Part shown: positions 22,248 to 62,581 of the stretch, piece after piece | How the letters are laid out: every line of letters begins with the position of its first letter | Numbering within the stretch: position 1 is the first letter of the stretch | DNA from: Gottfriedia acidiceleris | Lineage (GTDB): Bacteria > Bacillota > Bacilli > Bacillales > Bacillaceae_G | Direction: 5' to 3' | NCBI RefSeq assembly: GCF_002128425.1 | Contig: NZ_NESS01000005.1 | Location: forward strand, 62,001-126,000 | Length of the DNA stretch: 64,000 bases | Made by a program: the position numbers and the translations under genes | The notes under the pieces: generated by a model | Databases searched by the model: none | What the model was told of the DNA's origin: nothing | The model's input: only the letters and a program-made list of their open reading frames with translations

Positions 22248-22288
22248 AAGGCACCTCCCTATCTCTCGTAGGTCAAACAGCGTCGTTA

Positions 22289-22463
22289 GAATAGGCAGGT
22301 CTCCTGACTTAAGAATCTTTGTAAATAAAAACCTTCCCTATCTTTAATAAGTGGCACCTTCTTATTTACTCCTCTATTACAGTGGCGGGACCGTGTTGGA
22401 TTTACACCAATCTTCCCTTTTAAGTAAATGATTTCATACTATGATCTTCATTTACACCTATTC
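22289..22463 (-). ncRNA. cobalamin (B12) riboswitch
   Basis: On the minus strand the closing stem GAATAGG/CCTATTC (22457-22463 with 22289-22295) encloses the conserved core: GGTGTAAATCCAACACGG, then GTCCCGCCACTGT, and the B12 box AAGTCAGGAGACCTGCC at 22294-22310. It binds adenosyl- or methylcobalamin in this family. Position upstream of metE fits repression by B12. Confidence 0.95.
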
Positions 22464-22483
22464 CCTACTATTTGGTTTTCATC

Positions 22484-60629: not shown

Positions 60630-61254
60630 ATATGTTCCTACCCTTCTTAATTTTTTCTATAAATTCAGTTATACGGTAATAGTTAAATCGATAACTAACA
60701 CGATTTGAAATGACTCTAGCACTGATTGGAATCATTTCTTCTAGGATGACTAAACCATTAGCCTTTAAAGTACTTCCCGTTTCTACTAAGTCAACAATAA
60801 TATCTGACATTCCTACAATTGGTGCCAATTCAACAGAACCGTTTAAATAAATTAGTTCGATATTTTGCCTAAATTGAAAATACTTAGAAGTAATATTTGG
60901 ATATTTTGTCGCAACCCTTAACGTTTCATCACCTCGATCAATTACCGTTCCTGGAAAACCCGCTGCTGCAAAAATGCATTTTCCAAGTTCTAAATCCATC
61001 AACTCATATACATCTTTCTCTTGTTCTAGCAAAATGTCTTTTCCTACAAAACCAAGATCGCAAACTCCTCGTTCAACATATGTAGCGACATCTACAGGTT
61101 TCACTACTAAATATTTAATTTTATGCAAATCATCTTTAAAAATTAATTTTCTAGTTTTAGAATCAATTACTTTTCGGTAACCAGCCTGACTTAATATTTT
61201 AATAACCTCATCTTCAAGTCTTCCTTTTGCAACTGCAACTGTTAGCCAATTCAC
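60607..61254 (-). CDS. hisG: ATP phosphoribosyltransferase, short form
   Basis: A 215-aa catalytic subunit for the first step (ATP + PRPP). The short form lacks the C-terminal regulatory domain and needs HisZ. Motifs are VAVAKGRLEDEVIK, DVATYVERGVCDLGFVGKD and the PRPP-binding DIIVDLVETGSTLKANGL. The start is GTG at 61254: GAGGGATG lies eight bases upstream and the codon overlaps the hisZ stop (GTGA). The longer open frame from 61284 has no advantage. Confidence 0.94.
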   Translation of the reverse strand: MNWLTVAVAKGRLEDEVIKILSQAGYRKVIDSKTRKLIFKDDLHKIKYLVVKPVDVATYVERGVCDLGFVGKDILLEQEKDVYELMDLELGKCIFAAAGFPGTVIDRGDETLRVATKYPNITSKYFQFRQNIELIYLNGSVELAPIVGMSDIIVDLVETGSTLKANGLVILEEMIPISARVISNRVSYRFNYYRITEFIEKIKKGRNIYAGNIID

Positions 61255-62168
61255 TTTACATCCCTCATTTGACATGTTATCCAAGCATTTGTATCAATCG
61301 AAAATCCGATCGCATCAATACTGTTTTCCGAATCTTCAGAAACCAGAAGATAGCGCCCTCCACTTAAAACCTCTTTATTTAGCTGATCATAGTACCCTTT
61401 AAAAACGATTCCGTCATAATAATCAAATTCATTTACGATTGATAAATCGATAAGAATATTTGGACTAATTTCTTGAAATTTGATTATTTTTTCAACAGCA
61501 TTTGCCATTTCATTATTTAATACTAAGCTTCTTAGTAATGAATGAAGCTTTTCTCCTTTACCTTGTAAACTAAATAACTGTTCAAAAACATTTCTGGCTT
61601 GAAACGGTAAATTAATCGACTGAATAAATCGTTCTAATTCATCTATATTTTTTAAATAAATTAGTTTTTTCAAATTTGTTTTTTGTGACCCGGTTAAGTT
61701 ACATTCCTTAAATAAACCTTCTATAAACCCCGTATGCCCGATTTCTAAAATAAATGGAACATTGCATAGCAAATCAATTGCCATAATAACTACTTCTATT
61801 TCAGACGCTTCAGTAATTTTCCCTAAATTTTCAATCCCAAATTGGTTAATTTCATCAAGTTCTCCCCCGTTATTTCGATAGATTGTTGATTGATAAAATA
61901 CTTTACATTTCTCTTCCTTAAGCGCGATTGGATAAATCTCTTTCATCAATGCACTTGTTAAATCAGGTCTTAACAATAAAATTTGCTGTAAACGTGTTAA
62001 AACAACAACTAAGTCTTCTCTTGCTAACCTCGGGTTTCGACTAGAAAATGAATCATACTCTTCAAATAGCTGAGGATGAAATGGGATATAACCTCGCTCT
62101 AGTGCATAATCTTCCATTTTTCTTTTATATCGATAATTGACTAATGACTGCTTTAATTTCCCATCCAA
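61251..62168 (-). CDS. hisZ: ATP phosphoribosyltransferase regulatory subunit
   Basis: A 305-aa paralogue of histidyl-tRNA synthetase without tRNA ligase activity; it binds HisG and confers feedback control by histidine. The class II core is YIPFHPQLFEEYDSF, LLRPDLTSALMKEIY and FYQSTIYRN, with EFDYYDGIVFKGYYD and SGGRYL in the C-terminal part. It is shorter than most relatives (about 390 aa). The start is TTG at 62168 with GGGGGAATG upstream. First gene of hisZGDBHAFIJ; hisC is absent and must lie elsewhere. Confidence 0.92.
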   Translation of the reverse strand: MDGKLKQSLVNYRYKRKMEDYALERGYIPFHPQLFEEYDSFSSRNPRLAREDLVVVLTRLQQILLLRPDLTSALMKEIYPIALKEEKCKVFYQSTIYRNNGGELDEINQFGIENLGKITEASEIEVVIMAIDLLCNVPFILEIGHTGFIEGLFKECNLTGSQKTNLKKLIYLKNIDELERFIQSINLPFQARNVFEQLFSLQGKGEKLHSLLRSLVLNNEMANAVEKIIKFQEISPNILIDLSIVNEFDYYDGIVFKGYYDQLNKEVLSGGRYLLVSEDSENSIDAIGFSIDTNAWITCQMRDVK

Positions 62169-62194
62169 TTGAACATTCCCCCTTCTAGAAAAAC

Positions 62195-62228
62195 AAAAAG
62201 ACCATACAGGTTAAATGCCTGTATGGCC
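62195..62228 (-). terminator. his operon attenuator terminator
   Basis: GGCCATACAGG, a CATTTAA loop and CCTGTATGGTC, then TTTTTGTTTTT, ending about 25 bases before the hisZ start. Confidence 0.88.
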
Positions 62229-62301
62229 TTCTGGCACGACACAAGCACCTTTTCGATACACGAATAGGGCTTGCATCTACGGTCAATTTTTGTCCATAGA
62301 T

Positions 62302-62358
62302 TCAAACCCTGGGTGGATGATGATGTTGTAGCCCATTATTCGTGCGTGCGAAAATCAT
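62302..62358 (-). CDS. histidine leader peptide (18 aa)
   Basis: The peptide is MIFARTNNGLQHHHPPRV with three consecutive His codons (62317-62325). AAGGAG lies eight bases upstream of ATG at 62358; an in-frame ATG at 62364 is nearer the same site. It follows a consensus promoter and precedes a terminator, all upstream of hisZ. This is the architecture of ribosome-mediated his attenuation known from enteric bacteria: stalling at His codons when charged His-tRNA is scarce would favour antitermination. Function is inferred, but the codon content and context leave little doubt. Confidence 0.88.
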   Translation of the reverse strand: MIFARTNNGLQHHHPPRV

Positions 62359-62391
62359 GTTCATGTCTCCTTTTTCGTTTTATTTTTATTC

Positions 62392-62420
62392 ATCTTAATG
62401 AATTTGTTATAAGTTGTCAA
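62392..62420 (-). promoter_or_regulatory. his operon promoter
   Basis: TTGACA (62415-62420), a 17-base spacer and TAAGAT (62392-62397) on the minus strand, about 30 bases ahead of the leader peptide ribosome site. Confidence 0.8.
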
Positions 62421-62581
62421 TCCCTTTTGAAAAATAAAAATTTTGAAAGGGTTCTCATTAGGGTTTTTTAATTTTTTTAATCTTTTAAACTGAAAAGCGT
62501 TTTTTATTCTAAGACTCTATTATAGTACGGTGTTGATATTTACTATAAAAAAAGACTTCTTAAATTGAAAAGTAATTATTT

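Follow-up and report, generated by a model that had tools for sequence, protein, structure and literature searches.

A putative ribosome-mediated histidine attenuator upstream of the his operon in Gottfriedia

Amino-acid attenuation through a ribosome is usually associated with proteobacteria, and control by T-boxes with Firmicutes. What controls the his operon of Gottfriedia acidiceleris, whose first gene is preceded by a short open reading frame (ORF) with three consecutive histidine codons? We analysed a window of 64,000 nucleotides from this bacterium (NZ_NESS01000005.1, positions 62,001 to 126,000 of the contig), and all coordinates below are those of the window. Its minus strand carries, in order, a promoter, a GGAG, an 18-codon ORF, an intrinsic terminator and hisZ (62420-62168). 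The initial annotation had described this order, with three His codons in the ORF, and had interpreted it as attenuation of a Firmicute his operon by a histidine leader peptide. The order is borne out, and the reading gains support from the presence of a leader with HHH upstream of hisZ in all 13 Gottfriedia genomes examined. We put the probability that a ribosome on this leader senses histidine and thereby attenuates transcription of the his operon at about 0.88. The estimate is based on anatomy, conservation, cross-genus covariation and a switch obtained in one type of constrained fold; the stalling of the ribosome, its timing, the efficiency of termination and any response to histidine are what we infer.

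62392-62420, minus strand: sigma-A-like promoter TTGACA-17-TAAGAT, 10 of 12 consensus letters
62370-62367, minus strand: SD-like GGAG preceding the leader ORF
62302-62358, minus strand: leader peptide ORF, MIFARTNNGLQHHHPPRV followed by a stop, 18 codons, HHH in 13/13 genus genomes
62317-62325, minus strand: three His codons CAT CAT CAT, putative histidine sensor, ATCATCATC invariant in 14 rows
61251-62168, minus strand: hisZ, first gene of the operon, TTG start, 305 aa, best family match TIGR00443
55218-61284, minus strand: hisG, hisD, hisB, hisH, hisA, hisF, hisIE and hisJ, from family scans, hisF excepted

In the family scans, hisG, hisD, hisB, hisH, hisA, hisIE and hisJ all lay over their cut-offs, and we take the ORF between hisA and hisIE to be hisF. 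The first gene was assigned as hisZ by best match, as its score against TIGR00443 (160.5 bits) is below the cut-off of 271.65. The gene order is hisZ-G-D-B-H-A-(F)-IE-J, so that by these scans the operon downstream of the leader serves the synthesis of histidine, the amino acid of the leader codons. The HisZ of the window is short and distant from that of other genera of the order (22-31% identity, main matches).

The window contains two short HHH ORFs with an SD-like sequence, which are the two starts of the one leader ORF, whereas dinucleotide shuffles of the whole 64 kb (n = 20) contained 0.1 on average; the other HHH frames (59259, plus strand; 59566/59554, minus strand) both lack such a sequence. 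An in-frame ATG at 62364 is likely too near the GGAG to be the start of the leader. At the equivalent position of L012 and of L033 (same genome as L011), a TTGACA-17-TAATAT promoter was recognized by eye. Between the leader ORF and the first structural gene sits an intrinsic terminator, a terminator-like hairpin of 15 pairs with a U-rich tail (62232-62196, minus strand). The 600 bases around the leader hold two terminator-like sites, one per strand, where shuffles expect 0.3, and the leader folds more strongly than 200 of 200 shuffles (z -5.7).

Five RNA segments, defined on the window row, describe the pairing potential of the leader:

62294-62310, minus strand: segment A, AGGGTTTGAATCTATGG, containing the stop codon (62304-62302); from pairing and covariation
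62266-62282, minus strand: segment B, CCGTAGATGCAAGCCCT, partner of A, or of C through 62277-62269; from pairing and folds
62238-62247, minus strand: segment C, TGCTTGTGTC, partner of B (62246-62238) or of D (62247-62239); from pairing, folds and covariation
62216-62229, minus strand: segment D, AGGCCATACAGGCA, pairing with C (62224-62216, antiterminator) or with E (62229-62218, terminator)
62190-62210, minus strand: segment E, CCTGTATGGTCT (62210-62199), with the U-rich tail, 3' half of the terminator; from the terminator scan and covariation

The 5' arm of the terminator has an alternative partner in C, which makes the antiterminator pairing C:D and the terminator mutually exclusive. Two exclusive states follow, A:B with C:D for readthrough and B:C with D:E for a stop. 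In the mechanism that we propose, a ribosome would translate the 18-codon ORF while RNA polymerase makes the leader. When His-tRNA is scarce, the ribosome would wait at the His codons, just before A; A:B could then form, leaving C free to pair with the emerging D, and polymerase would read into hisZ. When His-tRNA is plentiful, the ribosome would reach the stop codon inside A and cover A, B would take C, D would be free for E, and polymerase would stop.

Folding the leader with and without a ribosome, a check proposed in the initial annotation, gave a switch in 14 of 14 masked leaders, but not a clean one in the seven rows examined unmasked. The masked folds used the partition function of RNA ended after D, with everything up to the front edge of the ribosome masked (edge set 12 or 15 bases past the P site), and each helix value averages the better-paired half of a segment. 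With the ribosome held at His codon 1 or 2, C:D was at least 0.99 in 14/14 leaders at both front edges; with the ribosome at the stop codon, B:C was at least 0.99 in the same number, again at both edges. At the third His codon, C:D took values of 0.78-0.99 with a front edge of 15. In five of the 14 rows the stretch from the His codons to D was also shuffled, and 4, 0, 2, 0 and 1 of 400 shuffles switched as strongly. When the RNA behind the ribosome was free to pair (7 of 14 rows), C:D was preferred at the stop in 5/7 rows, B:C was preferred in 6/7 with the ribosome on the third His codon, and 4/7 had C:D under 0.5 with the ribosome on the first. In the full-length RNA, D:E wins in every ribosome state; hence, the choice between the folds must be kinetic.

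The exact leader pattern occurs in 11 stretches, from Gottfriedia luciferensis, G. solisilvae, G. acidiceleris, G. endophytica and Bacillus sp. records. A model built from 10 of the 14 Gottfriedia leaders (R1) recovers 13/13 genus genomes, partly by construction. The genus alignment comprises 14 rows, 11 of them distinct, with 98.9% of cells paired for A:B with C:D and 100% for B:C with D:E. A:B and D:E each have a single pair changed on both sides, whereas C:D and B:C have none, so that support for the latter two rests on the sister elements described below. Two divergent rows, L013 and L037, have many codons changed and retain ATCATCATC, the surroundings of the stop codon and the greater part of segments B to E. 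The second of them belongs to a further, divergent his operon of Bacillus sp. AFS001701, one of the 13 genus genomes (L037:1-4163), whose own leader, MLLARLNKGLHDHHPLRG, reads HDHH instead of HHH. This operon may be a paralogous one or come from a mixed assembly (800 contigs, contamination 4).

R1 matched 45 of 397 genomes of the order (E up to 0.1). Outside the genus, four elements reached E <1e-9 (G016, G013, G015 and G218), each with a His leader and each of different sequence. A covariation alignment of 10 rows (A5) was made from six of the 14 Gottfriedia leaders, three of these four sister elements and the leader that precedes hisS*, an alternative histidyl-tRNA synthetase gene, in G014; L064, a near copy of L063, was omitted, and L279, L293 and L294, found later, are also absent. 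Its structure was drawn on one of its own rows and therefore leans towards that row, and both-side changes affect 8/16 pairs of A:B, 4/9 of C:D (98.9% of cells paired) and 4/12 of D:E. The combination of A:B and C:D scores 0.426 against 0.08-0.15 for slid versions, a value reached by 0/500 shuffles. In the given register B:C has 81.8% of cells paired and 1/9 pairs doubly changed; a different B:C register is seen by eye in the sister elements. The numbers of further pair types were not above shuffles (108/500 for A:B with C:D, 464/500 for B:C with D:E), and 38/500 shuffles matched the count of doubly changed pairs in B:C with D:E. Conversely, a model built from four sister elements only, with no Gottfriedia row (R2), finds 11 of the 12 genus genomes searched, at E 6e-8 to 1.2e-6, missing G004. 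Fourteen weaker R1 loci outside the family (L067-L080) looked by eye like plain terminators and were rejected, as was an R2 match in G092.

The sister-type elements switch to different degrees. With a wider footprint, a ribosome at the stop frees D in L065, L293 and L294, slightly so in L063 and L064, which both switch by the helix measure of the masked folds, and partially in L066, which by that measure does not; in L153 and L279, D is not released. With a narrower footprint, the drops in D pairing are small across these eight elements. A search for HHH ORFs upstream of hisZ or hisG in other genera found none in a sample of 107 regions (60 + 30 + 17) from 103 genomes, hisG occurring in 389 of the 397 genomes of the order; one region (L229) shows HHEH, in a frame that belongs to a longer ORF. 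One of these regions, L026, covers only 455 upstream bases, and in L185 the longest ORF is not hisZ, but all 60 regions of that set were rescanned independently of the longest ORF.

These data bear on other ways in which the leader could work. The initial annotation had placed the competing pair elsewhere:

62259-62344, minus strand: pair of 62344-62330, inside the ORF, with 62271-62259; real, unconserved in divergent members

A stalled ribosome would then hide the arm in the ORF and so alter the fold. This pair exists as described, with 8 + 4 pairs, a 2-base bulge and one additional U-A; its 12 paired positions in the window and the fact that its outer eight pairs close the minimum-energy fold speak for it. 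Nevertheless, it does not touch the terminator, a task that falls to C:D. Within the genus 88.6% of its cells are paired, 6/12 pairs fail in at least one of the 11 distinct rows, no both-side change is seen, 253/500 shuffles pair equally well, and it is largely lost in L013. Conservation in relatives, which the initial annotation had suggested checking, thus holds for the His codons but not for this stem. In the unmasked folds at the stop, rows that keep the pair tend to readthrough, whereas L013 and L037, in which it is lost or weak, behave as the two-state scheme predicts. Poor conservation and these folds rule the pair out as an antiterminator, and we regard a switch operating through it as improbable. 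The pair may well be responsible for the unclean unmasked switch and probably counteracts termination. The masked folds would be nearer to life than the unmasked ones, since following ribosomes and the bulk of the ribosome should hinder the pair.

The strong structure of the leader would also suit a direct ligand or tRNA sensor, a riboswitch or T-box that uses the hairpins, the small ORF being incidental. Such a sensor finds a weak echo in the trpB motif (RF04312), which matches the leader with 36.7 bits, the best score of that model in the genome. This value is below the 59-bit cut-off and is one of 41 matches in the genome at E up to 10, and therefore we consider it a generic match to a hairpin and terminator. 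Moreover, no T-box match (RF00230) over the gathering cut-off lies at the operon, and the divergent rows keep the His codons while neighbouring codons change, which makes a direct sensor very improbable. The trpB motif was likewise rejected as a leader-peptide family on account of its 41 matches in the window genome; in 199 genomes of the order it gave one match at 0.001 and none over cut-off. Least probable of all is an ordinary terminator next to a chance ORF, with no regulation, given the conservation of the leader, the covariation of A:B with C:D and of the terminator, and the shuffle controls.

The ribosome-mediated attenuator that we favour follows a principle that is already known. The principle is shared with the enterobacterial his attenuator (RF00514), in which a ribosome stalled at His codons favours the antiterminator, although the leader gave no match to that Rfam model over the gathering cut-off. 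The E. coli his leader terminates without leader translation, whereas in Gottfriedia the stop codon lies inside the first hairpin and ribosome-free folds favour C:D, that is, readthrough, in 13/14 rows. A His T-box likewise gauges histidine supply and acts on a terminator. With the trpB motif (PMC11109978), the leader shares a hairpin, a terminator and an antiterminator strand in the 3' side of the first hairpin; the two differ in that the Gottfriedia score is under the cut-off and unspecific.

The suggestion of the initial annotation that this might be an independent or poorly described case was too strong, since His leaders of bacilli had been reported in 2010 and 2022. Naville and Gautheret (2010; PMC2965389) described His leaders before hisZ and hisS* in bacilli, which by description share a His run in a short ORF, a premature terminator and the target hisZ with the present one; most hisS* leaders collected here differ by eye from the Gottfriedia leader in hairpin sequence. 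Ashniev et al. (2022; PMC9413887) proposed candidate attenuators before the his operons of the Bacillus cereus group. Like the present leader, these are from Bacillales, precede a his operon, contain a run of His codons (three to five), combine terminator and antiterminator and occur where HisR is missing; they belong to another genus, the likeness being one of description and not of sequence. In the open-access literature searched, we found no paper on Gottfriedia and histidine, and for histidine leader peptides with hisS and Bacillus only that of Naville and Gautheret. The Gottfriedia leader is thus a new, well-conserved case of a known principle. The clade offers a strongly conserved Gram-positive example of attenuation with an explicit two-state model, and it raises the question of whether translation trails transcription closely enough in Bacillales for such a switch.

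Ashniev et al. (PMC9413887) found the repressor HisR in every member of the Bacillales that they examined, apart from the B. cereus group, Gemella and Macrococcus. Following that account, we treat proteins of the Trp-repressor family (PF01371) as HisR, an assignment made by family and not one by one. The window genome has no such match at E 0.001, and among 60 relatives PF01371 is over cut-off in 41/41 genomes outside the family of the window against 1/19 inside (G004); in five other genomes of the genus, the only matches are short and do not reach the cut-off. T-boxes are plentiful in the window genome (34 matches, 32 over cut-off), none of them at the his operon. This amounts to a natural experiment, in which a HisR-type repressor is lacking in almost every genome examined of the very family whose His leaders precede biosynthesis, synthetase and transport genes. 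We give even odds to the proposal that the five-segment attenuator is portable and that, around Gottfriedia, a repressor regulon was rebuilt from leader-peptide RNAs after the loss of HisR, its targets being the his operon, hisS*, a YuiF-like permease, an antiporter-like gene and a small gene, with hisS* and a hisD-like gene in other families.

The synthetase gene hisS* (NF009085, E up to 1e-150) is found in 60/397 genomes of the order, with 61 genes. A short ORF with a three-His run near its end lies upstream of 58/61, and one with two His upstream of the other 3/61. Among the hisS* leaders, those in G218 and G014 have the five segments; the hairpin sequence of most others is different by eye. 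Across these leaders (L123-L184), ACCG(C/T)A occurs in 55/61 and a later GCGGT in 51/61, a combination that, we presume, resembles the T-box terminator consensus. Thus, hisS* may have kept a T-box terminator after a leader peptide replaced its sensor.

Transport genes are also preceded by such elements. In G016 (L293:1473-1640) and G013 (L294), which represent one sister genus, the leader MTQQLNVCMTIKHHHL, ending in a stop, and a five-segment RNA lie before an NhaC/YuiF-like permease gene, matched in L293 by PF03553 and PF13726; the distance from the matched RNA to the start of the long ORF is about 110 bases in L293 and about 430 in L294. In Staphylococcus aureus, the main histidine transporter is a protein annotated as NhaC- and YuiF-type (PMC10817146). 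By analogy, the permease of L293 and L294 is possibly a histidine transporter under a histidine attenuator. In G015, the leader MFNTTMFVQLHHHT with its stop (L065:1482-1645) precedes an antiporter-like gene (basic amino acid/polyamine type) that scores below NCBIfam cut-offs. At the cut used, hisG is missing from this genome, which is 91% complete and also gave no HisZ match, so it may depend on uptake.

Two further genes follow leaders of this kind. In L063:1622-2113, and alike in L064, MLRLLI(I/V)AQLHHHT and a stop lie before a gene of about 150 codons; for the L063 product there is no Pfam or NCBIfam match. G054 carries MIHFVLIINKSYNHHNR and a stop before a hisD-like gene (L279:1468-1640); the folds of this element do not switch with ribosome position, and the genome has a HisR-type protein.

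Two minor observations concern the window itself. The plus-strand terminator-like site of the 600 bases around the leader is an imperfect inverted repeat of 11 pairs, CCCTTT...AAAGGG (62422-62451), immediately before the -35 box; L002-L008 show much of it again, as judged by eye, and it may be an operator, a terminator of the opposite strand or a chance occurrence. At some distance, a cobalamin riboswitch matches 22277-22476 on the minus strand with 110.2 bits.
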